Position numbers and translations under genes: made by a program
Shown here: positions 1 to 64,000 of the stretch, piece by piece
Position numbering within the stretch: position 1 is the first letter of the stretch
How the letters are laid out: every line of letters starts with the position of its first letter
The notes under the pieces: model-generated
Told to the model about the DNA's origin: nothing
What the model saw: the letters and a program-made list of their open reading frames with translations, nothing else
The model's database searches: none
Source: Rhipicephalus microplus
Lineage: Eukaryota > Arthropoda > Arachnida > Ixodida > Ixodidae
Direction: 5' to 3'
NCBI RefSeq assembly: GCF_043290135.1
Contig: NC_134701.1
Span: 8,648,001-8,712,000 of the forward strand
DNA length: 64,000 nt

Positions 1-80
1 GTGGTGGTGCGGTGCTTTTTTTTCTTTGTGCTGATAGCTTTGAAGATATGTTATGATGGTGGTGAGAGTGGAGCAGGACT

Positions 81-153
81 GTCTCCGTGGCGCAATCGGC
101 TAGCGCGATTGGCTGTTAACCGGAAGGTTGGAGGTTCGAGCCACCCGGTGGTG
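81..153 (+). tRNA. tRNA-Asn(GUU)-like monomer, one-base T-arm deletion
   Basis: The first complete monomer keeps anticodon GTT but has only 73 nt. One C is missing after the T-loop (GAGCC ACCC instead of GAGCCC ACCC), which breaks the T-stem register. The anticodon-stem 3' strand is CCGGA. The same deletion marks a recurring subfamily whose tail reads GCGGTGG before the T-run (also 1410, 2442). Probably non-functional as a tRNA. Confidence 0.7.
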
Positions 154-227
154 GTGCGGTGGTTTTTTTTCTTTGGGCTGATAGCTTTGAAGATATGTTC
201 TGATGATGGTGAGAGTGGAGCAGGACT

Positions 228-301
228 GTCTCCGTGGCGCAATTGGCTAGTGCGATCGGCTGTTAACCGAAAAGTCGGAGGTTCGAGCCCACCCAGTGGT
301 G
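228..301 (+). tRNA. tRNA-Asn(GUU)-like monomer, AAGTC variable loop subtype
   Basis: Anticodon GTT is intact and the T-loop TTCGAGC is intact. The D-stem 3' strand is GTGC, giving one wobble. The acceptor 3' strand CAGTGGT adds a C6:A67 mismatch. This subtype (AAGTC and CCACCCAGTGG) nearly always precedes a monomer whose linker reads GATACCTTT instead of GATAGCTTT, so it marks a fixed position in the higher-order repeats. Confidence 0.7.
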
Positions 302-375
302 GTGCGGCGCTTTTTTTTCTTTGGGCTGATACCTTTGAAGATATGTTCTGATGGTGGTGAGAGTGGAGCAGGACT

Positions 376-449
376 GTCTCCGTGGCGCTATTGGCTTGCG
401 CGATCGGCTGTTAACCGAAAGGTTGGAGGTTCGAGCCCACACGGTGGTG
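376..449 (+). tRNA. tRNA-Asn(GUU)-like monomer with altered D-loop
   Basis: Anticodon GTT is intact. The D-loop reads TATTGGCTT in place of AATTGGCTA, and the T-stem 3' strand is CCACA, which loses the G49:C65 pair. It belongs to the GGCTTGCGC subtype that recurs through the array. Confidence 0.7.
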
Positions 450-672
450 GTGCGGCGCTTTTTTTTTCTTTGCGCTGATAGCTTTGAAGATATGTTCTGG
501 TGGTGGTGAGAGTGGAGCAAGACTGTCTCCGTGCCGCAATTGGCTAGTGTGATCGGCTGTTCACCGGAAAGTTGGAAGTTCGAGCCCACCCGTCGGTGGT
601 GCGGCGCTTTTTTTTCTTTGGGCTGATAGCTCTGAAGAAATGTTCTGACGGTGGTGAGAGTGGAGCAGGACT

Positions 673-746
673 GTCTCCGTGGCGCAATTGGCTAGCGCGA
701 TCGGCTGTAAACCGAAAAGTTGGAGGTTCGAGCTCTCCCGGTGGTG
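673..746 (+). pseudogene. tRNA-Asn-derived monomer with GTA (Tyr-type) anticodon
   Basis: The loop is CTGTAAA, so anticodon positions 34-36 read GTA instead of GTT after a single T to A change. The T-arm 3' strand is CTCTC. The body stays Asn-like, so a working tRNA-Tyr is unlikely. An identical monomer sits at 43792 in the duplicated block. Confidence 0.75.
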
Positions 747-820
747 GTGCGGCGCTTTTTTTTCTGTGGGCTGATAGCTTTGAAGATATGTTCTGATGGT
801 TGTGAGAGTGGAGCAGGACT

Positions 821-894
821 GTCTCCGTGGCGCAATGGGCTAGCGCGATCGGCTGTTAACCGAAAAGTTGGAGTTTCGAGCCCTCCCGGGAGTG
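821..894 (+). tRNA. tRNA-Asn(GUU)-like monomer, CCTCC tail subtype
   Basis: Anticodon GTT is intact. The T-arm is GGAGT/TTCGAGC/CCTCC, so A51 now pairs with U63, but the universal G53:C61 pair is lost. The acceptor 3' strand CGGGAGT leaves one C3:A70 mismatch and three wobble pairs against GTCTCCG. The tail GGTGTGTTGC ends in only T5 (904-908) before GC. Confidence 0.7.
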
Positions 895-1262
895 GTGTGT
901 TGCTTTTTGCTTTGCGGTAATAGCTTTGAAGATATGTTCTGATGGTGGTGAGAGTGCAGCAGGACTGTCTTGGTGGCGCAATTGGCTAGCGCGATCGGCT
1001 GTTAACCGAAAGGTTGGAGGTTCGAGCCCACCCGGTGGTGGTGCGGCGCTTTTTTTTTCTTTGGGGTGATAGCTCTGAAGAAATGTTCTGACGGTGGTCA
1101 GAGTGGAGCACGACGGTCTCCGTGGGGCAATAGGCTAGCGCGATCGGCTGTTAACTGAAAGGTTGGAGGTTCGAGCCCACCAGGTGGTGGTGCGGCGGTT
1201 TTTTTCTTTGGGCTGATAGCTCTGAAGAAATATTCTGACGGTGGTGAGAGTGGAGCAGGACT

Positions 1263-1336
1263 GCCTCCGTGGCGCAATTGGCTAGCGCGATCGGCTGTTA
1301 ACCGAAAAGTTGGAGGTTCGAGCCCACCCGGTGATG
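1263..1336 (+). tRNA. tRNA-Asn(GUU)-like monomer with GCCTCCG acceptor
   Basis: This copy starts GCCTCCG, the form found in insect and nematode tRNA-Asn as I know them, rather than GTCTCCG. The rest is consensus with AAGTT in the variable loop. Its 3' strand CGGTGAT no longer pairs at C2. It may be a chance reversion or a remnant of the founder sequence. Confidence 0.6.
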
Positions 1337-1704
1337 GTGTGGCGCTTTTTTTTCTTTGTGCTGATAGCTTTGAAGATATGTTCTGATGGTGGTGAGAGTG
1401 GATTAGACTGTCTCCGTGGCGCAATTGGCTAGCGCGATTGGCTGTTAACCGAAAGGTTAGAGGTTCGAGCCACCCGGTGGTGGTGCGGTGGTTTTTTTTC
1501 TTTGGGCTGATAGCTTTGAAGATATGTTCTGATGGTGGTGAGAGTGGAGCGGGACTGTCTCCGTGGCGCAATTGGCTAGCGCGATCGGCTGTTAACAGAA
1601 AAGTCGGAGGTTCGAGCCCACCCAGTGGTGGTGTGGCGCTTTTTTTTCTTTGGGCTGATACATTTGAAGATATGTTCTGATGGTGGTGAGAGTGGAGCAG
1701 GACT

Positions 1705-1778
1705 GTCTCTGTGGCGCAATGGGCTAGCGCGATCGGCTGTTAACCGAAAGGTTTGAGTTTCGTGCCCTCCCAGGATTG
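1705..1778 (+). pseudogene. tRNA-Asn-derived monomer with disrupted T-loop
   Basis: The anticodon is GTT, but the T-arm reads TTGAGTTTCGTGCCCTCCC, replacing the TTCGAGC loop by TTCGTGC and weakening the B-box to GTTTCGTGCCC. The tail has T6 (1788-1793). This subtype is always followed by the type starting GTCTTTG (see 1851), forming a conserved two-monomer module seen at many places. Confidence 0.7.
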
Positions 1779-1850
1779 GTGTGTTGCTTTTTTCTTTGTG
1801 GTAATAGCTTTTAAGATATGTTCTGATGGTGGTGAGAGTGGAGCAGGACT

Positions 1851-1924
1851 GTCTTTGTGGCGCAATTGGCTAGCGCGATCGGCTGTTATCCGAAAGGTTG
1901 GAGGTTTGAGCCCACCCGGTGAGG
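1851..1924 (+). tRNA. tRNA-Asn(GUU)-like monomer, GTCTTTG / CTGTTAT subtype
   Basis: Acceptor GTCTTTG, anticodon GTT, but position 38 is T (loop CTGTTAT). The B-box is GGTTTGAGCCC. The linker before it is distinctive (TGGTAATAGCTTTTAAGA). Some members of the subtype have a perfect anticodon stem (see 3325); this one keeps A27. Confidence 0.65.
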
Positions 1925-1999
1925 GTGCGGTGCTTTTTTTTTCTTTGGGGTGATAGCTCTGAAGAAATGGTCTGACGGTGGTGAGAGTGGAGCAGGACG

Positions 2000-2073
2000 G
2001 TCCCCGTGGCGCAATTCGCTAGCGCGATCGGCTGTTAACCGAAAAGTTGGAGGTTCGAGCCCTCCCGGGTGGG
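2000..2073 (+). tRNA. tRNA-Asn(GUU)-like monomer, GTCCCCG subtype with perfect T-stem
   Basis: The T-arm GGAGG/TTCGAGC/CCTCC is fully paired and the B-box GGTTCGAGCCC is intact. The acceptor GTCCCCG pairs with CGGGTGG at four inner Watson-Crick pairs plus a wobble. The D-loop reads AATTCGCTA, so the conserved G18 is replaced by C. The linker before it is of the TAGCTCTGAAGAAATGGTC type. Confidence 0.65.
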
Positions 2074-2145
2074 GTCTGTTGCTTTTTTCTTTGCGCTGAT
2101 AGCTTTGAAGATATGTTCTGATGGTGGTGAGAGTGGAGCAAGATT

Positions 2146-2219
2146 GTCTCCGTGGCGCAATTGGCTAGCGCGATCTGCTCTTAACCGAAAGGTTGGAGGT
2201 TCGAGCCCACCCGGTGGTG
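2146..2219 (+). pseudogene. tRNA-Asn-derived monomer with CTT (Lys-type) anticodon
   Basis: The anticodon arm reads ATCTG/CTCTTAA/CCGAA, so positions 34-36 are CTT, which would decode AAG. Stem pair 30:40 is also lost (U:C). The rest of the body is Asn-like. The subtype is abundant: further copies start at 3620, 4947, 6123 and 6565, at 45265, 46739, 48066, 49242 and 49684, and more lie right of 51 kb. Most are preceded by GAGCACGATT. The recurrence comes from copying a single variant, not from independent mutation. Confidence 0.75.
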
Positions 2220-2293
2220 GTGTGGCGCTTTTTTTTCTTTGCGCTGATAGCTTTGAAGATATGTTCTGATGGTGGTGAGAGTGGAGCACGACT

Positions 2294-2367
2294 GTCTCCG
2301 TGGCGCGATTGGCTAGCCCGATCGGCTGTTAACCGAAAGGTTGGAGGATCGAGCCCACCCGGTGGTG
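2294..2367 (+). tRNA. tRNA-Asn(GUU)-like monomer with GGATCGAGC T-loop edge
   Basis: Anticodon GTT. The T-arm reads GGAGGATCGAGC, changing the first T of the T-loop (position 54) to A and the B-box to GGATCGAGCCC. The D-arm start is GCGCGATTGG and the D-stem 3' side reads GCCC, breaking a D-stem pair. Confidence 0.65.
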
Positions 2368-2588
2368 GTGCAGTGCTTTTTTTTCTTTGGGCTGATAGCT
2401 TTGAAGATATGTTCTGATGGTGGTGAGATGGGAGCAAGACTGTCTCCGTGGCGCAATCGGCTAGCGCGATTGGCTGTTAACCGAAAGGTTGGAGGTTCGA
2501 GCCACCCGGTGGTGGTGCGGTGGTTTTTTTTCTTTGGGCTGATAGCTTTGAAGATATGTTCTGATGGTGGTGAGAGTGGAGCAGGACT

Positions 2589-2662
2589 GTCTCCGTGGCG
2601 CAATTGGCTAGCGCGATCGCCTATTAACCGAAAAGTCGGAGGTTTGAGCCCACCCAGTGTTG
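2589..2662 (+). pseudogene. tRNA-Asn-derived monomer with ATT anticodon and broken stem
   Basis: The loop is CTATTAA, giving anticodon ATT, and stem position 31 is C (ATCGC), which cannot pair with C39. The B-box is GGTTTGAGCCC. A duplicate starts at 45708. Confidence 0.7.
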
Positions 2663-3324
2663 GTGCGGCGCTTTTTTTTCTTTGGGCTGATACCTTTGAA
2701 GATATGTTCTGATGGTGGTGAGAGTGGAGCAGGACTGTCTCCGTGGCGCAATCGGCTTGCGCGATCGGCTGTTAACCGAAAGGTTGGCGGTTCGAGCCCA
2801 CCCGGTGGTGGTGCGGCGCTTTTTTTTCTTTGCGCTGATAGCTTTGAAGATATGTTGTGATGGTGGTGAGAGTGGAGCAAGACTGTCTCCGTGGCGCAAT
2901 GGGCTAGCGCGATCGGCTGTTAACCGAAAGGCTGGAGTTTCGAGCCCTCCCGGGTGTGGTGTGTTGCTTTTTTTCTTTGCGCTGATAGCTTTGAAGATAT
3001 GTTCTGATGGTGGTGAGAGTGGAGGAGGACTGTCTCCGTGGTGCAATTGGCTAGCGCGATCAGCTGTTAACCGAAAGGTTGGAGGTTTGAGCCCACCCGG
3101 TGGTGGTGCGGCGCTTTTTTTCTCTGCGCTGACAGCTTTGAACATATGTTCTGATGGTGGTGAGAGTGGAGCAAGACTGTCTCCGTGGCGCAATGGGCTA
3201 GCGCGATCGGCTGTTAACCGAAAGGTTTGACTTTCGTGCCCTCCCAGGATTGGTGTGTTGCTTTTTTCTTTGTGGTAATAGCTTTTAAGATATGTTCTGA
3301 TGGTGGTGAGAGTGGAGCAGGACT

Positions 3325-3398
3325 GTCTTTGTGGCGCAATTGGCTAGCGCGTTCGGCTGTTATCCGAAAGGTTGGAGGTTTGAGCCCACCCGGTGGGG
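3325..3398 (+). tRNA. tRNA-Asn(GUU)-like monomer with fully paired anticodon stem
   Basis: Unlike nearly all other monomers, this one has TTCGG/CCGAA, a perfect anticodon stem identical to ordinary animal tRNA-Asn. Position 38 is T (CTGTTAT), the acceptor is GTCTTTG and the B-box is GGTTTGAGCCC. Copies with the same stem occur in the duplicated block near 46444 and repeatedly right of 50 kb. The stem probably keeps the ancestral T27 rather than being a reversion. Confidence 0.65.
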
Positions 3399-4062
3399 GT
3401 GCGGTGCTTTTTTTTTCTTTGGGGTGATAGCTCTGAAGAAATGGTCTGACGGTGGTGAGACTAGAGCAGGACGGTCCCCGTGGCGCAATTCGCTAGCGCG
3501 ATCGGCTGTTAAACGAAAAGTTGGAGGTTCGAGCCCTCCCGGGTGGGGTCTGTTGCTTTTTTCTTTGCGCTGATAGCTTTGAAGATATGTTCTGATGGTG
3601 GTGAGAGTGGAGCACGATTGTCTCCGTGGCGCAATTGGCTAGCGCGATCTGCTCTTAACCGAAAGGTTGGAGGTTCGAGCCCACCCGGTGGTGGTGCGGC
3701 GCTTTTTTTTTCTTTGCGCTGATAGCTTTGAAGATATGTTCTGATGGTGGTGAGAGTGAAGCACGACTGTCTCCGTGGCGCAAGTGGCTAGTGCGATCGG
3801 CTGTTAACCGAAAGGTTGGAGGTTCGAGCCCACCCGGTGGTGGTGCGGTGCTTTTTTTTCTTTGGGCTGATAGCTTTGAAGATATGTTCTGATGGTGGTG
3901 AGAGGGGAGCAAGACTGTCTCCGTGGCGCAATGGGCTAGCGCGATCGGCTGTTGACCGAAAGGTTGGAGTTATGAGCCCTCCCGGGAGTGGTGTGTTGCT
4001 TTTTTCTTTGCGGTAATAGCTTTGAAGATATGTTCTGATGGTGGTGAGAGTTGAGCAGGACT

Positions 4063-4136
4063 GTCTTCGTGGCGCAATTGGCTAGCGCGATCGGCTATTA
4101 ACCGAAAGGTTGGAGGTTCGAGCCCAACCAGTGGTG
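4063..4136 (+). pseudogene. tRNA-Asn-derived monomer with ATT anticodon, otherwise consensus stem
   Basis: Loop CTATTAA with the usual ATCGG/CCGAA stem; the anticodon is ATT, which would still decode asparagine AAT if not modified. T-stem 3' strand is CCAAC. Duplicate at 47182. Its counterpart at 51600 has the normal GTT, so the change arose after that split. Confidence 0.65.
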
Positions 4137-5102
4137 GTGCGGCGCTTTTTTTTCTTTGGGGTGATAGCTCTGAAGAAATCTTCTGACGGTGGTGAGAGTG
4201 GAGCACGACTGTCTCCGTGGGGCAATTGGCTAGCGCGATCGCCTGTTAACCGAAAGGTTGGAGGTTCGAACCCACCCGGTGGTGGTGCGGCGCTTTTTTT
4301 TCCTTGGGGTGATAGCTCTGAAGAAATGGTCTGACGGTGGTGAGAGTGGAGCAGGACGGTCCCCGTGGCGCAATTGGCTAGCGCGATCGGCTGTTAACCG
4401 AAAAGTTGGAGTTTCGAGCCCTGCCGGGAATGGTGTCTTGCTTTTTTCTTTGCGCTGATAGCTTTGAAGATATGTTCTGATGGTGATGAGAGTGGAGCAC
4501 GACTGTCTCCATGGCGAAATTGGCTAGCGCGATCGGCTGTTAACCGAAAGGTTGGAGGAGCGAGCCCACCCGGTGGTGGTGCGGTGCTTTTTTTTCTTAG
4601 GGCTGATAGCTTTGAAGATATGTTCTGATGGGGGTGAGAGGGGAGCAAGACTGTCTCCGTGGCGCAATGGGCTAGCGCGATCGGCTGTTGACCGAAAGGT
4701 TGGAGGTTTGAGCCCACCCGGTGGGGGTGCGGTGCTTTTTTTTCTTTGGGATGATAGCTCTGAAGAAATGGTCTGACGGTGGTGAGAGTGGAGCAGGACG
4801 GTCCCCGTGGCGCAATTCGCTAGCGCGATCGGCTGTTAACCGAAAAGTTGGAGGTTCGAGCCCTCCCGGGTGGGGTCTGTTGCTTTTTTCTTTGCGCCGA
4901 TAGCTTTGAAGATATGTTCTGATGGTGGTGAGAGTGGAGCACGGTTGTTGCCGTGGCGCAATTGGCTAGCGCGATCTGCTCTTAACCGAAAGGTTGGAGG
5001 TTCGAGCCCACCCGTTGGTGGTGCGGCGCTTTTTTTTTCTTTGCGCTGATAGCTTTGAAGATATGTTCTGACGGTGGTGAGAGTGGAGCACGACTGTCTC
5101 CG

Positions 5103-5116
5103 TGGCGCAATTGGCT
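5103..5116 (+). promoter_or_regulatory. Internal Pol III A-box in the reference monomer
   Basis: TGGCGCAATTGG followed by CT fits the eukaryotic tRNA A-box (TRGCNNAGYNGG-like). It spans tRNA positions 8 to about 20. It is kept in most monomers; the clearest loss is in the four monomers starting at 29942, 30089, 37148 and 37296. Confidence 0.75.
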
Positions 5117-5147
5117 AGCGCGATCGGCTGTTAACCGAAAGGTTGGA

Positions 5148-5158
5148 GGTTCGAGCCC
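5148..5158 (+). promoter_or_regulatory. Internal Pol III B-box in the reference monomer
   Basis: GGTTCGAGCCC matches the B-box consensus GGTTCGANTCC except at one tolerated position. Subfamilies with GTTTCGAGCCC or GGTTTGAGCCC have a weaker first or internal position, and one subfamily has GTTTCGTGCCC. Confidence 0.75.
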
Positions 5159-5178
5159 ACCCGGTGGTGGTGCGGTGC

Positions 5179-5186
5179 TTTTTTTT
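5179..5186 (+). terminator. T8 run, probable Pol III terminator, 9 nt after the tRNA body
   Basis: Eight T residues follow the tRNA-like body after a 9-nt tail and are followed by CTTTG. This placement and length are typical for termination of a tRNA gene by RNA polymerase III. Equivalent runs of T5 to T9 close nearly every monomer. The CCACC-type tails usually have T7-T9 and the CCTCC-type tails T5-T6. Confidence 0.75.
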
Positions 5187-8033
5187 CTTTGGGCTGATAG
5201 CTTTGAAGATATGTTCTGATGGTGGTTAGAGGGGAGCAAGACTGTCTCCGTGGCGCAATGGGCTAGCGCGATCGGCTGTTGACCGAAAGGTTGGAGTTAT
5301 GAGCCCTCCCGGGAGTGGTGTGTTGCTTTTTGCTTTGCGGTAATAGCTTTGAAGATATGTTCTGATGGTGGTGAGAGTGCAGCAGGACTGTCTTTGTGGC
5401 GCAATTGGCTAGCGCGATCGGCTGTTAACCGAAAGGTTGGAGGTTCGAGCCCACCCGGTGGTGGTGCGGCGCTTTTTTTTTGGGGTGATAGCTCTGAAGA
5501 AATGTTCTGACGGTGGTCAGAGTGGAGGAGGACTGTCTCCGTGGTGCAATAGGCTAGCGCGATCAGCTGTTAACCGAAAGGTTGGAGGTTTGAGCCCACA
5601 CGGTGGTGGTGCGGCGCTTTTTTTCTCTGCACTGATAGCTTTGAACATATGTTCTGATGGGGGTGAGAGTGGAGAAAGACTGTCTCCGTGGCGCAATGGG
5701 CTAGCGCGATCGGCTGTTAACCGAAAGGTTTGAGTTTCGTGCCCTCCCAGGATTGGTGTGTTGCTTTTTTCTTTGTGGTAATAGCTTTTAAGATATGTTC
5801 TGATGGTGGTGAGAGTGGAGCAGGACTGTCTTTGTGGCGCAATTGGCTAGCGCGTTCGGCTGTTATCCGAAAGGTTGGATGTTTGAGCCCACCCGGTGGG
5901 GGTGCGGTGCTTTTTTTTTCTTTGGGGTGATAGCTCTGAAGAAATGGTCTGACGGTGGTGAGAGTAGAGCAGGACGGTCCCCGTGGCGCAATTCGCTAGC
6001 GCGATCGGCTGTTAACCGAAAAGTTGGAGGTTCGAGCCCTCCCGGGTGGGGTCTGTTGCTTTTTTCTTTGCGCAGATAGCTTTGAAGATATGTTCTGATG
6101 GTGGTGAGAGGAGAGCACGATTGTCTCCGTGGCGCAATTGGCTAGCGCGATCTGCTCTTAACCAAAAGGTTGGAGGTTCGAGCCCACCCGGTGGTGGTGC
6201 GGCGCTTTTTTTTCTTTGCGCTGATAGCTTTGAAGATATGTTCTGATGTTGGTGAGAGTGGAGCACGACTGTCTCCGTGGCGCAAGTGGCTAGTGCGATC
6301 GGCTGTTAACCGAAAGGTTGGAGGTTCGAGCCCACCCGGTGGTGGTGCGGTGCTTTTTTTTCTTTGGGCTGATAGCTTTGAAGATATGTTCTGATGGTGG
6401 TGAGAGGGGAGCAAGACTGTCTCCGTGGCGCAATGGGCTAGCGCGATCGGCTGTTGACCGAAAGGTTGGAGTTATGAGCCCTCCCGGGAGTGGTCTGTTG
6501 CTTTTTTCTTTGCGCTGATAGCTTTGAAGATATGTTCTGATGGTGGTGAGAGTGGAGCACGATTGTCTCCGTGGCGCAATTGGCTAGCGCGATCTGCTCT
6601 TAACCGAAAGTTTGGAGGTTCGAGCCCACCCGGTGGTGGTGTGGCGCTTTTTTTTTCTTTGCGCTGATAGCTTGGAAGATATGTTCTGATGGTGGTGAGA
6701 GTGGAGCACGACTGTCTCCGTGGCGCGATTGGCTAGCCCGATCGGCTGTTAACCGAAAGGTTGGAGGATCGAGCCCACCCGGTGGTGGTGCGGTGCTTTT
6801 TTTTCTTTGGGCTGATAGCTTTGAAGATATGTTCTGATGGTGGTGAGAGGGGAGCAAGACTGTCTCCGTGGCGCAATTGGCTAGCGCGATTGGCTGTTAA
6901 CCGAAAGGTTGGAGGTTCGAGCCACTTGGTGGTGGTGCGGTGGTTTTTTTTCTTTGGGCTGATAGCTTTGAAGATATGTTCTGATGGTGGTGAGAGTGGA
7001 GCAGGACTGTCTCCGTGGCGCAATTGGCTAGCGCGATCGCCTGTTAACCGAAAAGTCGGAGGTTTGCGCCCACCCAGTGGTGGTGCGGCGCTTTTTTTTC
7101 TTTGGGCTGATACCTTTGAAGATATGTTCTGATGGTGGTGAGAGTGGAGCAGGACTGTCTCCGTGGCGCAATTGGCTTGCGCGATCGGCTGTTAACCGAA
7201 AGGTTGGAGGTTCGAGCCCACCCGGTGGTGGTGCGGCGCTTTTTTTTCTTTGCGCTGATAGCTTTGAAGATATGTTCTGATGGTGGTGAGAGTGGAGCAA
7301 GACTGTCTCCGTGGCGCAATGGGCTAGCGCGATCGGCTGTTAACCGAAAGGTTGGAGTTTCGAGCCCTCCCGGGTGTGGTGTGTTGCTTTTTTCTTTGCG
7401 CTGATAGCTTTGAAGATATGTTCTGATGGTGGTGAGAGTGGAGGAGGACTGTCTCCGTGGTGCAATTGGCTAGCGCGATCAGCTGTTAACCGAAAGGTTG
7501 GAGGTTTGAGCCCACCCGGTGGTGGTGCGGCGCTTTTTTTCTCTGCGCTGATAGCTTTGAACATATGTTCTGAAGGTGGTGAGAGTGGAGCAAGACTGTC
7601 TCCGTGGCGCAATGGGCTAGCGCGATCGGCTGTTAACCGAAAGGTTTGAGTTTCGTGCCCTCCCAGGATTGGTGTGTTGCTTTTTTCTTTGTGGTAATAG
7701 CTTTTAAGATATGTTCTGATGGTGGTGAGAGTGGAGCAGGACTGTCTTTGTGGCGCAATTGGCTAGCGCGTTCGGCTGTTATCCGAAAGGTTGGAGGTTT
7801 GAGCCCACCCGGTGGGGGTGCGGTGCTTTTTTTTTCTTTGGGGTGATAGCTCTGAAGAAATGGTCTGACGGTGGTGAGAGTAGAGCAGGACGGTCCCCGT
7901 GGCGCAATTCGCTAGCGCGATCGGCTGTTAACCGAAAAGTTGGAGGTTCGAGCCCTCCCGGGTCGGGTCTGTTGCTTTTTTCTTTGCGCTGATAGCTTTG
8001 AAGATATGTTCTGATGGTGGTGAGAGTGGAGCA

Positions 8034-10060
8034 GGACTGTCTCCGTGGCGCAATTGGCTAGCGCGATCGGCTGTTAACCGAAAGGTTGGAGTTTCGAGCC
8101 CACCCGTCGGTGGTGCGGCGCTTTTTTTTCTTTGGGCTGATAGCATTGAAGGTATGTTCTGATGGTGGTGAGAGTAGAGCAGGAGTGTCTCCGCGGCGCT
8201 ATTGGCTAGCGTGATCGGCTGTTAACCGAAAGTTTGGAGGTTCGAGCCCACCCGGTGGTGGTGCGGCGCTTTTTTTTTCCGTGGGCTGATAGCTTTGAAG
8301 ATATGTTCTGATGGTGGTGAGAGTGGAGCAGGACTGTCCCCGTGGCGCAATTGGCTAGCGCGATCGGCTGTTAACCAAAAGGTCGGAGGTTCGAGCCCAC
8401 CCGGTGGTGGTGCGGTGCTTTTTTTTCTTTGGGCTGATGGCTTTGAAGATATGTTCTTATGGTGGTGAGAGTGGAGCAGGACTGTCTCCGTGGCGCAATT
8501 GGCTTGCGCGATCGGCTGTTAACCGAAACGTTGGAGGTTCGAGCCTACCCGGTGGTTGTGCGGCGCTTTTTTTCTGTGGGCTGATTGCTTTGAAGATATG
8601 TTCTGATGGTGGTGAGAGTGGAGCAGGACTGTCTCTGTGGCGCAATTGGCTAGCGTGAGCGGCTGTTAACCGAAAAGTTGGAGGTTCGAGCCCACCCGGT
8701 GGTGGTGCGGCGCTTTTTTTTCTTTGGGCTGATAGCTTTGAAGATATGTTCTGATGGTGGTGAGAGTGGAGCAGGACTGTCTCCATGGCGCAATAGGCAA
8801 GCGCGATCGGCTGTTAACCAAACGGTCGGAGGTTCGAGCCCACCCGGTGGTGGTATGGCGCTTGTTTTTCTTTGGGCTGATAGCTTTGAAGATATGTTCT
8901 GATGGTGGTGAGAGTGGAGCAGGACTCTCTCCGTGGCGCAATTGGCTAGTGCGATCGGCTGTTAACCGAAAGGTTGGAGTTTCGAGCCCACCCGGTGGTG
9001 GTGCGGCGCTTTTTTTTTCTTTGGGCTGATAGCTTTGAAGATATGTTCTGATGATGGTGAGAGGGAGGCAGGACTGCATCCGTGGCGCAACTGGCTAGCG
9101 CGATCGGCTGTTAACCGAAAAGTCGGAGGTTCGAGCCCACCCAGTGGTGGTGCGGCGCTTTTTTTTCTTTGGGCTGATACCTTTAAGATATGTTCTGATG
9201 GTGGTGAGAGTGGAGCAGGACTGTCTCCGTGGCGCAATTGGCTTGCGCGATCGGCTGTTAACCGAAAGGTTGGAGTTTCGAGCCCTCCCGGGTGTGGTGT
9301 GTTGCTTTTTTTTGCGCTGATAGCTTTGAAGATATGTTCTGATGGTGGTGAGAGTGGAGCAGGACTGTCTCCGTGGCGCAATTGGCTAGCGCGATCAGCT
9401 GTTAACCGAAAGGTTGGAGGTTTGAGCCCACCCGGTGGTGGTGCGGCGCTTTTTTTCTTTGCGCTGATAGCTTTGAAGATATGTTCTGATGGTGGGGAGA
9501 GTGGAGCAAGACTGTCTCCGTGGCGCAGTGGGCTAGCGCGATCGGCTGTTAACTGAAAGGTTTGAGTTTCGTGCCCTCCCAGGATTGGTGTGTTTCTTTT
9601 TTCTTTGTGGTAATAGCTTTTAAGATATGTTCTGATGGTGGTGAGAGTGGAGCAGGACTGTCTTTGTGGCGCAATTGGCTAGCGCGATAGGCTGTTATCC
9701 GAAAGTTTGGAGGTTTGAGCCCACCCAGTGGGGGTGCGGTGCTTTTTTTTTCTTTGGGGTGATAGCTCTGAAGAAATGGTCTGACGGTGGTGAGAGTGGA
9801 GCAGGACGGTCTCCGTGGCGCAATTCGCTAGCGCGATCGGCTGTTAACCGAAAAGTTGGAGGTGCGAGCCCTCCCAGGTGGCTTGTGTTGCTTTTTTCTT
9901 TGCGCTGATATCTTTGAAGATATGTTCTGATGGTGGTGAGAGTGGAGCACGATTGTCTCCGTGGCGCAATGGGCTAGCGCGATCGGCTGTTGACCGAAAG
10001 GTTGGAGTTTCGAGCCCTCCCGGGAATGGTGTGTTGCTTTTTTCTTTGCGCTGATAGCTT
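8034..10060 (+). repeat. Connecting mosaic of monomers
   Basis: These monomers bridge the 8-kb block and the 6.3-kb tandem pair. The part 8034-8650 resembles 15785-16400, 26220-26880 and 33275-33940. The part from about 9030 onward is the first copy of the recurring GGGAGGCAGGACTGCATCC module. Nothing other than array monomers is seen. Confidence 0.7.
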
Positions 10061-10740
10061 TGAAGATATGTTCTGATGGTGGTGAAGTGGAGCAAGACTG
10101 TCTCTGTGGCGCAATTGGCTAGCGCGATCGGCTGTTAACCGAAAAGTCGGAGGTTCGAGCCCACCCAGTGGTGGTGCGGCGCTTTTTTTTCTTTGGGCTG
10201 ATACCTTTAAGATATGTTCTGATGGTGGTGAGAGTGGAGCAGGACTGTCTCCGTGGCGCAATTGGCTTGCGCTATCGGCTGTTAACCGAAAGGTTGGAGG
10301 TTCGAGCCCACCCGGTGGTGGTGCGGCGCTTTTTTTCTTTGGGCTGATAGCTTGAAGGTATGTTCTGATGGTGGTGAGAGTAGAGCAGGACTGTCTCCGT
10401 GGCGCAATTGGCTAGCGCGATCGGCTGTTAACCGAAAGGTTGGAGTTTCGAGCCCTCCCGGGAGTGGTGTGTTGCTTTTTCCTTTGCGCTGATAGCTTTG
10501 AAGATATGTTCTGATAGTGGTGAGAGTGGAGCACGACTGTCTCCGTGGCGCAGTTGGCTAGCGCGATCGGCTGTGAACCGAAAGGTTGGAGGTTCGAGCC
10601 CACCCGGTGGTGGTGCGGCGCTTTTTTTTCTTTGTGCTGATAGCTTTGAAGATATGTTCTGATGGTGGTGAGAGTGGAGCAGGACTGTCTCCGTGGCGCA
10701 ATTGGCTAGCGTGATTGGCTGTTAACCAAAAGGTTGGAGG
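9030..10740 (+). repeat. Recurring module, first of five copies
   Basis: A run of monomers opening with the rare junction GAGGGAGGCAGGACTGCATC at 9061 recurs with that junction at 13469, 19788, 23904 and 30960. Copies two to five stay alike for at least 2.7 kb (about 18 monomers). The first copy departs at about 10740, where the sister copies have the one-base T-arm deletion and a GCGGTGG tail. Confidence 0.75.
10539..10612 (+). pseudogene. tRNA-Asn-derived monomer with GTG (His-type) anticodon
   Basis: The loop is CTGTGAA, a single T to G change giving anticodon GTG. Everything else is consensus apart from CAGTTGG in the D-loop. The same variant starts at 14948, 16859, 21265, 25382 and 32438, always following a monomer whose T-run is interrupted early (TTTTTCC). 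It is a positional marker of the repeated modules. A functional tRNA-His is unlikely because the G(-1) and identity features of tRNA-His are absent. Confidence 0.75.
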
Positions 10741-12452
10741 TTCGAGCCCACCCGGTGGTGGTGCAGCGCTTTTTTTTCTTTGGGCTGATAGCTTTGAAGG
10801 TATGTTCTGATGGTGGTGAGAGTAGAGCAGGACTGTCTCCGTGGCGCAATAGGCTTGTGCGATCGGCTGTTAACCGAAAGGTTGGAGTTTCGAGCCATCC
10901 CGGGAGTGGTGTGTTGCTTTTTTCTTTGCGCTGATAGCTTTGAAGATATGTTCTGATTGTGGTGAGAGTGGAGCACGACTGTCTCCGTGGCGCAGTTGGC
11001 TAGCGCGATCGGCCGTTAACAGAAAGGTCGGAGGTTCGAGCCCACCCGGTGGTGGTGCGGCGCTTTTTTTCTTTGTGCTGATAGCTTTGAAGATATGTTC
11101 TGATGGTGGTGAGAGTGGAGCAGGACGGTCCCCGTGGCACAATTCGCTAGCGCGATTGGCTGTTAACCGAAAAGTTTGAGGTTCGAGCCCTCCCGAGTGG
11201 GGTGTGTTGCTTTTTTCTTTGCGCTGATAGCTTTGAAGATATGTTCTGATGGTGGTGAGAGTGGAGCAGGACTGTCTCCGTGGCGCAATTGGCTAGCGCG
11301 ATCGGCTGTTAACCGAAAGGTTGGAGTTTCGAGCCCACCCGGTGGTGGTGCAGCGCTTTTTTTTCTTTGGGCTGATAGCTTTGAAGGTATGTTCTGATGG
11401 TGGTGAGAGTAGAGCAGGACTGTCTCCGTGGCGCAATAGGCTAGTGCGATCGGCTGTTAACCGAAAGGTTGGAGTTTCGAGCCATCCCGGGAGTGGTGTG
11501 TTGCTTTTTTCTTTGCGCTGATAGCTTTGAAGATATGTTCTGATGGTGGTGAGAGTGGAGCACGACTGTCTCCGTGGCGCAGTTGGCTAGCGCGATCGGC
11601 CGTTAACAGAAAGGTCGGAGGTTCGAGCCCACCCGGTGGTGGTGCGGCGCTTTTTTTTCTTTGTGCTGATAGCTTTGAAGATATGTTCTGATGGTGGTGA
11701 GAGTGGAGCAGGACGGTCCCCGTGGCACAATTCGCTAGAGCGATTGGCTGTTAACCGAAAAGTTGGAGGTTCGAGCCCTCCCGAGTGGGGTGTGTTGCTT
11801 TTTTCTTTGCGCTGATAGCTTTGAAGATATGTTCTGATGGTGGTGAGAGTGGAGCACGATTGTCTCCGTGGCGCAATTGGCTAACGCGATCTTCTGTTAA
11901 CCGAAAGGTTGGAGGTTCGAGCCCACCCGGTGGTGGTGCGGCGCTTTTTTTTCTTTGCGCTGATAGCTTTGAAGGTATGATCTGACGGTGGTGAGAGTGG
12001 AGCACGACTGTCTCCGTGGCGCAATGGGCTAGCGTGATCGGCTGTTAACCGAAAGGTTGGAGGTTCGAGCCCACCCGGTGGTGGTGCGGCGCTTTTTTTT
12101 CTGTGGGCTGATAGCTTTGAAGATATGTTCTGATGGTGGTGAGAGTGGAGCAGGACTGTCTCCGTGGCGAAATTGGCTAGCGCGATTGGCTGTTAACCGA
12201 AAGGTTGGAGGTTCGGGCCCACCCGGTAGTGGTGCGGTGCTTTTTTTCTTTGGGCTGATAGCTTTGAAGATATGTTCTGATGGTGGTGAGAGTGACGCAG
12301 GACTGTCTCCGTGGCGCAATTGGCTAGCGCGATCGGCTGTTAGCCAAAAGTTCGGAGGTTTGAGCCCACCCGGTTGTGGTGCGGCGCTTTTTTTTCTTTG
12401 GGCTGATAGCTTTGAAGATATGTACTTATGGTGCTGAGAGTGGAGCAGGACT

Positions 12453-12526
12453 GTCTCCGTGGTGCAATTGGCTAGCGCGATCGGCTGTTAACCAAAAAGT
12501 TGGAGGTTCGAGCCTACCCGGTGGTT
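12453..12526 (+). tRNA. tRNA-Asn(GUU)-like monomer with an interrupted terminator
   Basis: The body has anticodon GTT and variable loop AAAGT. The following T-run is broken to T4-G-T3 (12536-12543), so Pol III termination would be weaker than elsewhere and read-through into the next monomer is possible. The repeated copy near 18850 has the same break. Confidence 0.6.
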
Positions 12527-15242: not shown

Positions 15243-15316
15243 GTCTCCGTGGCGCAATTGGCTAGCGCGATCGGCTCTTAACCGAAAACTCGGAGGTTCG
15301 AGCCCACCCAGTGGTG
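15243..15316 (+). pseudogene. tRNA-Asn-derived monomer with CTT anticodon on the normal stem
   Basis: Loop CTCTTAA on the usual ATCGG/CCGAA stem, so the CTT anticodon arose here separately from the ATCTG-stem subtype. The corresponding monomers in the sister blocks (around 21560, 25677 and 32733) have CTGTTAA, so this is a private change in one copy. Confidence 0.7.
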
Positions 15317-22300: not shown

Positions 22301-22440
22301 CGGCGCTATTGGCTAGCGTGATCGGCTGTTAACCGAAAGTTTGGAGGTTCGAGCCCACCCGGTGGTGGTGCGGCGCTTTTTTTTTCCGTGGGCTGATAGC
22401 TTTGAAGATATGTTCTGATGGTGGTGAGAGTGGAGCAGGA
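16381..22440 (+). repeat. 6.32-kb higher-order repeat, copy 2
   Basis: Directly follows copy 1. The junction at 16380/16381 lies in a linker (TGATTGCTT before, TGAAGATATG after). It ends near 22440 where the sequence switches to a run (CTCCATGGCGCAATTGGCAAGC) that otherwise occurs near 8780. Confidence 0.85.
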
Positions 22441-53849: not shown

Positions 53850-55785
53850 TTAACCGAAAAGTTGGAGGTTCGAGCCCTCCCGGGTGGGGTCTGTTGCTTT
53901 TTTCTTTGCGCAGATAGCTTTGAAGATATGTTCTGATGGTGGTGAGAGTGGAGCACGATTGTCTCCGTGGCGCAATTGGCTAGCGCGATCTGCTCTTAAC
54001 CGAAAGGTTGGAGGTTCGAGCCCACCCGGTGGTGGTGAGGCGCTTTTTTTTCTTTGCGCTGATAGCTTTGAAGATATGTTCTGATGGTGGTGAGAGTGGA
54101 GCACGACTGTCTCCGTGGCGCAAGTGGCTAGTGCGATCGGCTGTTAACCGAAAGGTTGGAGGTTCGAGCCCACCCGGTGGTGGTGCGGTGCTTTTTTTTC
54201 TTTGGGCTGATAGCTTTGAAGATATGTTCTGATGGTGGTGAGAGGGGAGCAAGACTGTCTCCGTGGCGCAATGGGCTAGCGCGATCGGCTGTTGACCGAA
54301 AGGTTGGAGTTATGAGCCCTCCCGGGAGTGGTGTGTTGCTTTTTTCTTTGCGGTAATAGCTTTGAAGATATGTTCTGATGGTGGTGAGAGTGGAGCAGGA
54401 CTGTCTTCGTGGCGCAATTGGCTAGCGCGATCGGCTGTTAACCGAAAGGTTGGAGGTTCGAGCCCAACCGGTGGTGGTGCGGCGCTTTTTTTTCTTTGGG
54501 GTGATAGCTCTGAAGAAATGTTCTGACGGTGGTCAGAGTGGAGCACGACTGTCTCCGTGGGGCAATTGGCTAGCGCGATCGCCTGTTAACCGAAAGGTTG
54601 GAGGTTCGAGCCCACCCGGTGGTGGTGCGGCGCTTTTTTTTCCTTGGGGTGATAGCTCTGAAGAAATGGTCTGACGGTGGTGAGAGTGGAGCAGGACGGT
54701 CCCCGTGGCGCAATTGGCTAGCGCGATCGGCTGTTAACCGAAAAGTTGGAGGTTCGAGCCCTCCCGGGTGGAGTGTGTTGCTTTTTTCTTTGCGCTGATA
54801 TCTTTGAAGATACGTTCTGATGGTGGTGAGAGTGGAGCACGATTGTCTCCATGGCGCAATTGGCTAGCGCGATCTGCTGTTAACCAAAAGGTTGGAGGTT
54901 CGAGCCCACCCGGTGGTGTGGCGCTTTTTTTTTCTTTGGGCTGATAGCTTTGAAGATATGTTCTAATTGTGGTGAGAGTGGAGCAGGACTGTCTCCGTGG
55001 CGCAATTGGCTAGCGCGATCGGCTGTTAACCGAAAGGTTGGAGTTTCGAGCCCTGCCGGGAGTGGTGTCTTGGTTTTTTCTTTGCGCTGATAGCTTTGAA
55101 GATATGTTCTGATGGTGATGAGAGTGGAGCACGAATGTCTCCATGGCGAAATTGGCTAGCGCGATCGGCTGTTAACCGAAAGGTTGGAGGATCGAGCCCA
55201 CTCGGTGGTGGTGCGGTGCTTTTTTTTCTTTGGGCTGATAGCTTTGAAGATATGTTCTGATGGTGGTGAGAGGGGAGCAAGACTGTCTCCGTGGCGCAAT
55301 GGGCTAGCGCGATAGGCTGTTGACCGAAAGGTTGGAGGTTTGAGCCCACCCGGTGGGGGTGCGGTGCTTTTTTTTTCTTTGGGATGATAGCTCTGAAGAA
55401 ATGGTCTGACGGTGGTGAGAGTGGAGCAGGACGGTCCCCGTGGCGCAATTCGCTAGCGCGATCGGCTGTTAACCGAAAAGTTGGAGGTTCGAGCCCTCCC
55501 GGGTGGGGTCTGTTGCTTTTTTCTTTGCGCCGATAGCTTTGAAGATATGTTCTGATGGTGGTGAGAGTGGAGCACGATTGTTGCCGTGGCGCAATTGGCT
55601 AGCGCGATCTGCTCTTAACCGAAAGGTTCGAGCTCACCCGGTGGTGGTTCGAAAGGTTCGAGCTCACCCGGTGGTGGTGCGGCGCTTTTTTTTTCTTTGC
55701 GCTGATAGCTTTGAAGATATGTTCTGATGGTGGTGAGAGTGGAGCACGACTGTCTCCATGGCGCAACTGGCTAGCGCGATCGGCT
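53850..55785 (+). repeat. About 1.9-kb block, repeated at 56547-58481
   Basis: Offset 2697 bp. Both copies end in the T-arm-rearranged monomer and the CTCCATGGCGCAACTGG monomer. Shared rare marks include GATACGTTCTG and GGTTTTTTC tails. Confidence 0.75.
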
Positions 55786-56142: not shown

Positions 56143-56902
56143 GATGATAGCTCTGAAGAAATGGTCTGACGGTGGTGAGAGTGGAGCAGGACGGTCCCCG
56201 TGGCGCAATTCGCTAGCGCGATCGGCTGTTAACCGAAAAGTTGGAGGTTCGAGCCCTCCCGGGTGGGGTCTGTTGCTTTTTTCTTTGCGCCGATAGCTTT
56301 GAAGATATGTTCTGATGGTGGTGAGAGTGGAGCACGATTGTTGCCGTGGCGCAATTGGCTAGCGCGATCTGCTCTTAACCGAAAGGTTCGAGCTCACCCG
56401 GTGGTGGTTCGAAAGGTTCGAGCTCACCCGGTGGTGGTGCGGCGCTTTTTTTTTCTTTGCGCTGATAGCTTTGAAGATATGTTCTGATGGTGGTGAGAGT
56501 GGAGCACGACTGTCTCCATGGCGCAACTGGCTAGCGCGATCGGCTGTTAACCGAAAAGTTGGAGGTTCGAGCCCTCCCGGGTGGGGTCTGTTGCTTTTTT
56601 CTTTGCGCAGATAGCTTTGAAGATATGTTCTGATGGTGGTGAGAGTGGAGCACGATTGTCTCCGTGGCGCAATTGGCTAGCGCGATCTGCTCTTAACCGA
56701 AAGGTTGGAGGTTCGAGCCCACCCGGTGGTGGTGCGGTGCTTTTTTTTCTTTGCGCTGATAGCTTTGAAGATATGTTCCGATGGTGGTGAGAGTGGAGCA
56801 CGACTGTCTCCGTGGCGCAAGTGGCTAGTGCGATCGGCTGTTAACCGAAAGGTTGGAGGTTCGAGCCCACCCGGTGGTGGTGCGGTGCTTTTTTTTCTTT
56901 GG
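56143..56902 (+). repeat. 760-bp (five-monomer) tandem duplication, copy 2
   Basis: Nearly identical to copy 1. It ends where GGGCTGATAG replaces GGGATGATAG, which marks the breakpoint inside the linker just after the T-run. Confidence 0.8.
56340..56436 (+). pseudogene. Second copy of the T-arm-rearranged monomer
   Basis: Matches the monomer at 55580 exactly as far as I can see, and lies 760 bp further on inside a five-monomer tandem duplication. Confidence 0.8.
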
Positions 56903-58275: not shown

Positions 58276-58372
58276 GTTGCCGTGGCGCAATTGCCTAGCG
58301 CGATCTGCTCTTAACCGAAAGGTTCGAGCTCACCCGGTGGTGGTTCGAAAGGTTCGAGCTCACCCGGTGGTG
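58276..58372 (+). pseudogene. Third copy of the T-arm-rearranged monomer
   Basis: Same 30-bp internal duplication and 7-base loss; differs by AATTGCCTA in the D-loop (G19 to C). Confidence 0.8.
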
Positions 58373-58578
58373 GTGCGGCGCTTTTTTTTTCTTTGCGCTG
58401 ATAGCTTTGAAGATATGTTCTGATGGTGGTGAGTGTGGAGCACGACTGTCTCCATGGCGCAACTGGCTAGCGCGATCGGCCGTTAACCGAAAGGTTGGAG
58501 GTTCGAGCCCACCCGGTGGTGGTGCGGTGCTTTTTTTCTTTGGGCTGATAGCTTTGAAGATATGTTCTGATGGTGGTG

Positions 58579-60347: not shown

Positions 60348-60934
60348 GTTGAGCAGGACAGTCTTCGTGGCGCAATTGGCTAGCGCGATCGGCTGTTAAC
60401 CGAAAGGTTGGAGGTTCGAGCCCAACCGGTGGTGGTGCGGCGCTTTTTTTTCTTTGGGGTGATAGCTCTGAAGAAATCTTCTGACGGTGGTGAGAGTGGA
60501 GCACGACTGTCTCCGTGGGGCAATTGGCTAGCGCGATCGCCTGTTAACCGAAAGGTTGGAGGTTCGAGCCCACCCGGTGGTGGTGCGGCGCTTTTTTTTC
60601 GTTGGGGTGATAGCTCTGAAGAAATGGTCTGACGGTGGTGAGAGTGGAGCAGGACGGTCCCCGTGGCGCAAATGGCTAGCGCGATCGGCTGTTAACCGAA
60701 AAGTTGGAGGTTCGAGCCCTCCCGGGTGAAGTGTGTTGCTTTTTTCTTTGCGCTGATATCTTTGAAGATACGTTCTGATGGTGGTGAGAGTGGAGCACGA
60801 TTGTCTCCATGGCGCAATTGGCTAGCGCGATCTGCTGTTAACCAAAAGGTTGGAGGTTCGAGCCCACCCGGTGGTGGTGTGGCGCTTTTTTTTCTTAGGG
60901 CTGATAGCTTTGAAGATATGTTCTAATTGTGGTG

Positions 60935-62703
60935 AGAGGGGAGCAAGACTGTCTCCGTGGCGCAATGGGCTAGCGCGATCGGCTGTTGACCGAAAGGTTG
61001 GAGTTATGAGCCCTCCCGGGAGTGGTGTGTTGCTTTTTGCTTTGCGGTAATAGCTTTGAAGATATGTTCTGATGGTGGTGAGAGTGCAGCAGGACTGTCT
61101 TTGTGGCGCAATTGGCTAGCGCGATCGGCTGTTAACCGAAAGGTTGGAGGTTCGAGCCCACCCGGTGGTGGTGCGGCGCTTTTTTTTGGGGGGGTGATAG
61201 CTCTGAAGAAAGGTTCTGACGGTGGTCAGAGTGGAGCACGACGGTCTCCGTGGGGCAATAGGCTAGCGCGATCGGTTGTTAACCGAAAGGTTGGAGGTTC
61301 GAGCCCACCCGGTGTCGGTGCGGCGGTTTTTTTTCTTTGGGCTGATAGCTCTGAAGAAATATTCTGACGGTGGTGAGAGTGGAGCAGGACTGTCTCCGTG
61401 GCGCAATTGGCTAGCGCGATCGGCTGTTAACCGAAAAGTGTGAGGTTCGAGCACACCCGGTGATGGTGTGGCGCTTTTTTTTCTTTGCGCTGATAGTTTT
61501 GAAGATATGTTCTGATGGTGGTGAGAGTGGAGCAAGACTGTCTCCGTGGCGCAATGGGCTAGCGCGATCGGCTGTTAACCGAAAGGTTGGAGTTTCGAGC
61601 CCTCCCGGGTGTGGTGTGTTGCTTTTTTCTTTGCGCTGATAGCTTTGATGATATGTTCTGATGGTGGTGAGAGTGGAGGAGGACTGTCTACGTGGTGCAA
61701 TTGGCTAGCGCGATCAGCTGTTAACCGAAAGGTTGGAGGTTTGAGCCCACCCGGTGGTGGTGCGGCGCTTTTTTTCTCTGCGCTGATAGCTTTGAACATA
61801 TGTTCTGATGGTGGTGAGAGTGGAGCAAGACTGTCTCCGTGGCGCAATGGGCTAGCGCGATCGGCTGTTAACCGAAAGGTTTGAGTTTCGTGCCCTCCCA
61901 GGATTGGTGTGTTGCTTTTTTCTTTGTGGTAATAGCTTTTAGGATATGTTCTGATGGTGGTGAGAGTGGAGCAGGACTGTCTTTGTGGCGCAATTGGCTA
62001 GCGCGTTCGGCTGTTATCCGAAAGGTTGGAGGTTTGAGCCCACCCGGTGGGGGTGCGGTGCTTTTTTTTTCTTTGGGGTGATAGCTCTGAAGAAATGGTC
62101 TGACGGTGGTGAGAGTAGAGCAGGACGGTCCCCGTGGCGCAATTCGCTAGCGCGATCGGCTGTTAACCGAAAAGTTGGAGGTTCGAGCCCTCCCGGGTGG
62201 GGTCTGTTGCTTTTTTCTTTGCGCTGATAGCTTTGAAGATATGTTCTGATGGTGGTGAGAGTGGAGCACGATTGTCTCCGTGGCGCAATTGGCTAGCGCG
62301 ATCTGCTCTTAACCGAAAGGTTGGAGGTTCGAGCCCACCCGGTGGTGGTGCGGCGCTTTTTTTTCTTTGCGCTGATAGCTTTGAAGATATGTTCTGATGG
62401 TGGTGAGAGTGGAGCACGACTGTCTCCGTGGCGCAAGTGGCTAGTGCGATCGGCTGTTAACCGAAAGGTTGGAGGTTCGAGCCCACCCGGTGGTGGTGCG
62501 GTGCTTTTTTTTTCTTTGGGCTGATAGCTTTGAAGATATGTTCTGATGGTGGTGAGAGGGGAGCAAGACTGTCTCCGTGGCGCAATGGGCTAGCGCGATC
62601 GGCTGTTGACCGAAAGGTTGGAGTTATGAGCCCTCCCGGGAGTGGTGTGTTGCTTTTTTCTTTGCGGTAATAGCTTTGAAGATATGTTCTGATGGTGGTG
62701 AGA
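60935..62703 (+). repeat. About 12-monomer block, second copy
   Basis: Partner of 58579-60347. It ends where GAGTGCAGCAGG here replaces GAGTTGAGCAGG. Confidence 0.75.
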
Positions 62704-63448
62704 GTGCAGCAGGACTGTCTTTGTGGCGCAATTGGCTAGCGCGATCGGCTGTTAACCGAAAGGTTGGAGGTTCGAGCCCACCCGGTGGTGGTGCGGCGCT
62801 TTTTTTTGGGGTGATAGCTCTGAAGAAATGTTCTGACGGTGGTCAGAGTGGAGGAGGACTGTCTCCGTGGTGCAATTGGCTAGCGCGATCAGCTGTTAAC
62901 CGAAAGGTTTGAGGTTTGAGCCCACCCGGTGGTGGTGCGGCGCTTTTTTTCTCTGCGCTGATAGCTTTGAACATATGTTCTGATGGGGGTGAGAGTGGAG
63001 CAAGACTGTCTCCGTGGCGCAATGGGCTAGCGCGATCGGCTGTTAACCGAAAGGTTTGAGTTTCGTGCCCTCCCAGGATTGGTGTGTTGCTTTTTTCTTC
63101 GTGGTAATAGCTTTTAAGATATGTTCTGATGGTGGTGAGAGTGGAGCAGGACTGTCTTTGTGGCGCAATTGGCTAGCGTGTTCGGCTGTTATCCGAAAGG
63201 TTGGAGGTTTGAGCCCACCCGGTGGGGGTGCGGTGCTTTTTTTTTCTTTGGGGTGATAGCTCTGAAGAAATGGTCTGACGGTGGTGAGAGTGGAGCAGGA
63301 CGGTCCCCGTGGCGCAATTCGCTAGCGCGATCGGCTGTTAACCGAAAAGTTGGAGGTTCGAGCCCTCCCGGGTGGGGTCTGTTGCTTTTTTCTTTGCGCC
63401 GATAGCTTTGAAGATATGTTCTGATGGTGGTGAGAGTGGAGCACGATT

Positions 63449-63545
63449 GTTGCCTTGGCGCAATTGGCTAGCGCGATCTGCTCTTAACCGAAAGGTTCGA
63501 GCTCACCCGGTGGTGGTTCGAAAGGTTCGAGCTCACCCGGTGGTG
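63449..63545 (+). pseudogene. Fourth copy of the T-arm-rearranged monomer
   Basis: Same rearrangement with acceptor-side change GTTGCCTTGG. Its flanks match those of the 58276 copy at an offset of about 5.17 kb. Confidence 0.8.
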
Positions 63546-64000
63546 GTGCGGCGCTTTTTTTTTCTTTGCGCTGATAGCTTTGAAGATATGTTCTGATGGT
63601 GGTGAGAGTGGAGCACGACTGTCTCCATGGCGCAACTGGCTAGCGCGATCGGCCGTTAACCGAAAGGTTGGAGGTTCGAGCCCACCCGGTGGTGGTGCTG
63701 TGCTTTTTTTTCTTTGGGCTGATAGCTTTGAAGATATGTTCTGATGGTGGTGAGAGGGGAGCAAGACTGTCACCGTGGCGCAATGGGCTAGCGCGATCGG
63801 CTGTTGACCGAAAGGTTGGAGTTATGAGCCCTCCCGGGAGTGGTGTGTTGCTTTTTGCTTTGCGGTAATAGCTTTGAAGATATGTTCTGATGGTGGTGAG
63901 AGTGCAGCAGGACTGTCTTTGTGGCGCAATTGGCTAGCGCGATCAGCTGTTAACCGAAAGGTTGGAGGTTCGAGCCCACCCGGTGGTGGTGCGGTGCGTT

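Follow-up and report, generated by a model that had tools for sequence, protein, structure and literature searches.

The array and its unit

In this work we analysed a 64,000-nucleotide stretch of the genome of the hard tick Rhipicephalus microplus (hereafter the window), which spans positions 8648001-8712000 of contig NC_134701.1 (here C2) in an assembly of 3.26 Gb and 1202 contigs, the eleven largest of which measure 110-513 Mb. The window is filled by a satellite whose short unit consists of a tRNA-Asn-like body and a linker, and this satellite very probably descends from nuclear tRNA-Asn(GUU) genes that were clustered in tandem. Wrap-around alignment resolves 435 head-to-tail units with a consensus of 148 bp, the first and the last being cut; the 433 near-complete rows (fewer than 20 gaps) were kept for counts. 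Tandem Repeats Finder (TRF) reports a single array at 1-63501 (period 148, 430.9 copies, 86% matches) that continues at 63523-63997, and no sequence other than array was found over the 64 kb. An earlier sequence-only reading had described about 430 head-to-tail units of 147-148 bp with nothing else in the window and had proposed a tandem-repeat search as a check; the count and the purity of the array both stand, as does the division of the unit into a tRNA-Asn-like body and an equally short linker (columns 1-74 and 75-148). The NheI, PvuI and HpaI sites that it had placed in most units number 355, 296 and 330 in the window. Its single-type array is also borne out, but this array extends far beyond the window on C2 and comprises two interleaved subfamilies.

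The 434 start-to-start distances between units are 148 (154 cases), 146 (126), 147 (94), 149 (41) or 145 bp (9), and more rarely 144 (4), 172 (4), 150 (1) or 80 bp (1). Units are on average 93.2% identical to the consensus and 88.8% identical to one another, with 259 distinct aligned sequences among the 433. Pairwise identity is flat with distance (0.878-0.900 at the distances tried, 0.881 for neighbours), which indicates good mixing of the array. Satellite DNA is defined by short units repeated head to tail over long stretches, as seen here and in samples elsewhere on C2, and the flat identity together with the block duplications listed below is the mark of concerted evolution.

Along the 148 bp consensus, columns 1-74 are the tRNA-Asn-like body (mostly with a GTT anticodon), 75-83 a trailer, 84-91 a run of Ts (T-run) and 92-148 a spacer, so that the body makes up about half of the unit and the linker the other half. 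Subfamily A accounts for 302 of the 433 units and subfamily B for 116, the 15 others being intermediates. The features of the window are as follows.

1-64000, + strand: tRNA-Asn-derived satellite array of 435 units, uninterrupted, extending past both window ends (TRF, unit alignment, flanking samples)
81-227, + strand: subfamily A unit, with tRNA-Asn-like body (first ~74 bases), short trailer, T-run and spacer
821-966, + strand: subfamily B unit, with position 52-64 of the T-stem paired, the acceptor changed and the T-run shorter
81-8033, + strand: 54-unit block, repeated at an offset of 43,119 with three mismatches over the first 8,033 window bases
43200-51152, + strand: second copy of the 54-unit block
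10100-16419, + strand: 41-unit block, next copy from 16420 (alignment of 6,424 bases, 99.2% identity, from 10001 on)
63489-63547, + strand: 30-bp internal tandem duplication within a unit (TRF)
55620-55678, 56380-56438 and 58316-58374: the same 30-bp duplication

Decay of the tRNA body

An intact cloverleaf, as expected of a functional tRNA-Asn gene, was found in none of the 1212 satellite units scored (the 433 of the window plus 779 taken from 41 loci elsewhere, on C2, C13 and C100), no unit having 20 or more of the 21 pairs. In the window, an A28 x A44 mismatch in the anticodon stem is present in 422 of 433 units and is common to both subfamilies; subfamily A has in addition A52 x A64 and T4 x T70, and subfamily B has C3 x A71 and, in most units, T54 x C62. 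The Rfam tRNA gathering score is reached at 331 places in the window, all on the + strand among the 150 matches listed. The satellite identity proposed by the sequence-only reading is upheld. The window's tRNA-like bodies, however, have decayed and are not working genes: the best of their scores is 47.6 bits, compared with 67.2-67.7 bits for intact tRNA-Asn copies of the same genome. An A-box-like pattern is present in 354 of the 433 window units, a B-box-like pattern in 199 and both in 144, and all 433 contain a run of four or more Ts.

A body more conserved than its flanks, also expected of a functional gene, is not what the satellite units show. In a permutation test on the 917 distinct rows among the 1212 units, body columns had a diversity of 0.111 and linker columns one of 0.104 (p = 0.70). 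Ranked by low variability among 148 windows along the unit, the A box comes 61st, the B box 92nd and the anticodon loop 27th, and among the distinct rows of the 779 units from outside the window diversity is higher at paired columns (0.121) than at unpaired columns (0.100). Since the body is no less diverse than the linker, the boxes are unremarkable and the paired columns are the more diverse, nothing points to selection for a tRNA. Compensatory changes were considered as a sign of selection on an RNA and rejected, as the joint pair counts are mostly one-sided and the main linked changes are differences between subfamilies.

Intact genes, gene arrays and intermediates

The same genome contains intact tRNA-Asn genes. 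One of these, at C1:249.48 Mb, is a dispersed gene without any broken pair and with a score of 67.7 bits. A 43-nt intact core with at most one mismatch occurs 10,516 times genome-wide (5560 + 4956; control 0), and the exact cores among the matches listed include runs spaced 149-150 bp at C9:82.98-83.12 Mb; in the window, no match to this core has fewer than two mismatches. The perfect 74-nt body is found in 67 copies, 41 on C9, 14 on C45, 7 on C293, 4 on C8 and 1 on C502. All four on C8 (11-25 Mb) belong to dispersed genes, and their flanks do not resemble the satellite linker. In two samples from C9, selected for an intact core, all eight units have 21 of 21 pairs, score 67.2 bits and lie 148-150 bp apart, and their linker is homologous to that of the satellite. 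Comparing single representatives, two C9 sub-arrays differ at 0 of 74 body positions and at 6 linker positions (Fisher p = 0.028), and one C9 sub-array differs from the C293 consensus at 0 of 74 body positions and at 10 linker positions (Fisher p = 0.0014).

Between these arrays and the satellite stand other samples. At C8:125.13 and C4:231.76 Mb, both selected in the same way, four scored units have 18-19 pairs and 39.9-47 bits. A 6 kb sample of C293 (L109, positions 4001-10000 of that contig) mixes intact and decaying units, 8 of its 32 body rows, two of which are misaligned, having 20 or 21 pairs. Changes at columns 2, 17, 28 and 73 are common to subfamilies A and B and absent from the C1 gene and the C293 consensus. 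Judged by their sequences, the C293, C8:125.1 Mb and C4:231.76 Mb samples are apparent intermediates between gene array and satellite. Seven of the 32 rows of the C293 sample have a CTT anticodon, and truncated units of 68 bp are interspersed among its full-length units.

Genomic position and amount

On C2 the array covers ~4.8 Mb, from ~5.1096 Mb to a point in the interval 9.90-9.95 Mb, with insertions of other DNA; it was found in 26 of 27 places sampled blindly between 5.11 and 9.91 Mb, the exception being 9.10 Mb. Along the contig, a ~555-bp TTAGG-bearing satellite (sampled at 1, 4 and 5.0 Mb) meets the tRNA satellite at an abrupt junction at ~5,109,560, and the latter is followed by a 130-bp satellite (9.95 and 10.0 Mb) and then by other DNA (11, 13, 18, 60 and 200 Mb). 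The adjoining TTAGG-bearing and 130-bp satellites suggest that the tRNA satellite lies in heterochromatin. The ~555-bp satellite is also present at several chromosome-contig ends (L029, L030, L049, L066, L100, L101 and others), and the 130-bp satellite, rich in GGAC/GTCC steps, was seen both on the inner side of the C2 tRNA satellite and on C13 at 8.5-9.5 Mb (L043, L064, L065, L110). Non-array DNA accompanies the satellite in 4 of the 26 positive C2 places, two of which contain a long terminal repeat (LTR) element. The two ends of an LTR element within the C2 array (L016:7484-10000, L017:1-537) are 98.1% identical over 539 aligned bases, and therefore the insertion is younger than the array at that place.

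The satellite is also present on C3, C6, C9, C12, C13 (both strands, with several strand switches) and smaller contigs, and window-like units occur at C4:231.76 Mb. The small number of sampling points on C1, C5, C7, C10 and C11 lacked it, as did those ends of C8 that were sampled. A centromeric satellite would bind the centromeric histone and occur on every chromosome; sparse sampling places the present one near ends of C2, C3, C6 and C9, and on C4. Its presence at every chromosome end is not supported by this sampling. Uniform transcription away from the chromosome end was likewise discarded: it holds at the points sampled on C2, C3, C4 and C6 but at only three of four on C9, where the array is on the minus strand at 135.5, 136.0 and 136.2 Mb and on the plus strand at 136.27 Mb.

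A 29-nt tRNA-Asn core with at most two mismatches matches 270,443 times in the whole assembly (117,181 forward, 153,262 reverse; backward-read control 0). Under the same rule the 64-kb window yields 221 matches; 22 kb of C2 array from outside the window yield 79, and 50 kb of array from C13 and C100 yield 170. With this calibration, and presuming that nearly all matches lie in such arrays (intact-core units are ~4% of them), the satellite is estimated at 0.51-0.54 million units, that is 75-80 Mb or 2.3-2.4% of the assembly.

Origin of the satellite

Dispersed genes, internal intact arrays with a homologous spacer, mixed arrays and very large decayed arrays, several of them near chromosome-contig ends, are thus seen side by side. 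Such a pattern is to be expected when a gene cluster turns into a satellite. In such a scenario, each satellite unit would be one former tRNA-Asn gene with its own spacer; some gene units would have escaped selection for a working tRNA and taken on pair-breaking changes, and unequal crossing-over together with duplication of blocks would then have amplified and homogenised these decayed units, giving arrays that presumably contribute nothing to translation. Since about one third of the window units keep both box-like sequences and all keep the T-run, some leftover binding of RNA polymerase III (Pol III) or TFIIIC may occur.

Several observations weigh against this scenario or limit it. We infer the direction, from gene array to satellite, from shared changes rather than from a rooted tree. 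Between C9 and subfamily A, 6 of 74 body positions differ versus 13 of 73 linker positions (p = 0.09), so that early constraint on the body during this step is possible. The T-run (columns 84-91) ranks first of the 148 windows for low variability, and second within subfamily A; it is the sole clearly conserved feature of the unit, and its conservation could reflect a lasting constraint on termination by Pol III. The GTT anticodon is kept in 89% of the 779 units outside the window. Finally, the copy number is an estimate from the assembly.

The anticodon, the 331 window matches at the Rfam gathering score, the universal T-run and the 144 window units with both box-like patterns are also what a working tRNA-Asn mega-cluster, serving translation or a supply of tRNA fragments, would show. 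We consider such a cluster extremely unlikely, and reject it for the window, as no unit of the 1212 retains 20 pairs and neither the body nor either box shows any excess of conservation; paired columns are even the more diverse, while the intact arrays elsewhere do have a conserved body. The array might act as chromatin at chromosome ends or beside centromeres, with decayed tRNA promoters as its basis: hundreds of thousands of weak TFIIIC/Pol III sites, one per 146-149 bp, would determine the spacing of nucleosomes, confine heterochromatin or attract condensin. We hold this structural role to be unlikely.

Amplification in tandem of a tRNA-Asn-headed short interspersed nuclear element (SINE) has a precedent in squamate SINE-derived satellites, whose published units of 139-151 nt lie near chromosome ends (PMC10702118), and in the tick unit, too, unrelated sequence comes after the tRNA part. 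This origin is nevertheless very improbable, because the same linker is found between the intact C9 genes, the tRNA part is followed by a terminal T-run, and the unit has neither a recognisable SINE body nor a tail of simple repeats (no search was aimed at linker copies dispersed in the genome). A modest array strongly inflated by assembly, or an outright assembly artefact, would account for the nearly perfect copy over 8 kb at the 43,119 offset and for the several strand changes on C13, and most units by count are on contigs of unchecked placement. Yet 259 of the 433 units are distinct, the satellite is present on C2, C3, C6, C9, C12, C13 and smaller contigs, and its junctions with other satellites and insertions are clean, which makes an artefact extremely unlikely. 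Descent from a tandem tRNA-Asn gene cluster remains by far the best account of these arrays.

A retrotransposon inserted at tRNA-Asn starts

A long interspersed nuclear element (LINE) on C13 (L022, ~4644-9480), with endonuclease and RVT_1 domains above the Pfam cut-off and a zf-RVT domain below it, lies within a satellite unit; 17 bases of the tRNA start are repeated on either side of it, and its A-tail abuts the tRNA start. The same tail abuts tRNA-Asn in the C9 gene array (L153:1-27) and in a dispersed C8 gene (L158:55-80). Genome-wide, a junction of LINE tail and tRNA-Asn start within 14 nt occurs at 19 places (control 0), several of which look duplicated, and the 17-nt 3' end of the LINE has 257 exact copies (control 3). 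Hence tRNA-Asn is a repeated, exact target of this LINE, although with 19 junctions among 257 copies we do not claim that it is the sole one, and the element may be a tRNA-targeting retrotransposon. Among the 100 matches listed, LINE 3' ends are clustered, at least 15 at C1:14.03-14.14 Mb and at least 22 at C3:169.77-169.84 Mb; these clusters are possibly other repeated targets. The reverse transcriptase has 156 protein matches; among the 120 listed, those with an organism name come from the hard ticks Ixodes, Haemaphysalis, Dermacentor, Rhipicephalus and Amblyomma, with the exception of one bin labelled Anaplasma. The TTAGG repeats and the sizes of the eleven largest contigs are also consistent with a tick.

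Significance and comparison with known systems

The birth of a satellite is rarely seen, and this genome brings together single genes, clusters under constraint, mixed arrays in which bodies decay and anticodons have changed, and a satellite of some half a million decayed units. The step from gene cluster to satellite thereby becomes accessible to dating and to comparison among species of ticks. In annotated tick genomes, arrays of this kind would lead to inflated counts of tRNA genes. The repeat is also a candidate marker for chromosomes. Binding of TFIIIC, if it occurs, would make the arrays a test of ideas on tRNA genes as chromatin boundaries, and, if the structural role holds, a tRNA gene cluster would have turned into a structural element of chromosomes.

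No title or abstract listed in our searches of the open-access literature, where most subscription papers on tick cytogenetics are missing, concerns a tick tRNA satellite. A Rhipicephalus repeat, RMR-1, is reportedly 149 bp long. Exact linker and body-plus-linker patterns gave no match in viral contigs or in genome contigs, from collections that are viral and prokaryotic and thus little informative here. Chance open frames of the array gave seven weak matches to other proteomes (28-44% identity), and the five inspected contain a short tRNA-Asn-like stretch within an otherwise different sequence.

In the tick Ixodes scapularis, the repeats ISR-1 to ISR-3 likewise form large satellite blocks, at one heterochromatic chromosome end that is presumed centromeric, and ISR-2 represents ~7% of the genome (PMC4748124). 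By description it differs from the present satellite: the ISR-2 unit is 95-99 bp long, and the relevant sections of that paper mention no tRNA origin. The oomycete Phytophthora infestans has 11,056 predicted tRNA genes, ~64% of them in same-gene arrays, and likewise forms long single-gene tandem arrays via unequal crossing-over, for example 271 tRNA-Cys copies with a 513-nt unit (PMC9584435). As described there, these arrays read as genes with little divergence, whereas the very large tick arrays are decayed, their units outnumbering perfect copies by several thousand to one.

Tandem satellites related to tRNA are in print as a class (PMC10702118). Amphibian tRNA-like repeats (Xenopus OAX/satellite I, Cynops PolIII/TAN, Rana/polIII and Hydromantes Hy/polIII) are likewise tandem and contain a tRNA-like, Pol III-type stretch, Rana/polIII amounting to up to 10% of some genomes (PMC10702118). 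However, their units are longer (~200-360 nt, OAX longer still) than the 148 bp of the tick unit, and their likeness to tRNA is weaker (64% over 64 nt for Rana) or questioned, whereas half of the tick unit is a clear tRNA-Asn body; the pages of the review devoted to them (PMC10702118) name no source gene cluster, whereas the tick genome has intact arrays with the same linker. The squamate satellites resemble that of the tick in their short units, tRNA-related part and subtelomeric tendency, but they derive from SINE pieces and are amplified much less (PMC10702118), while the tick linker is that of a tRNA gene cluster. Satellites derived from tRNA were already known as a class, and what distinguishes the present one is that the source cluster is visible in the same genome, and in a tick.

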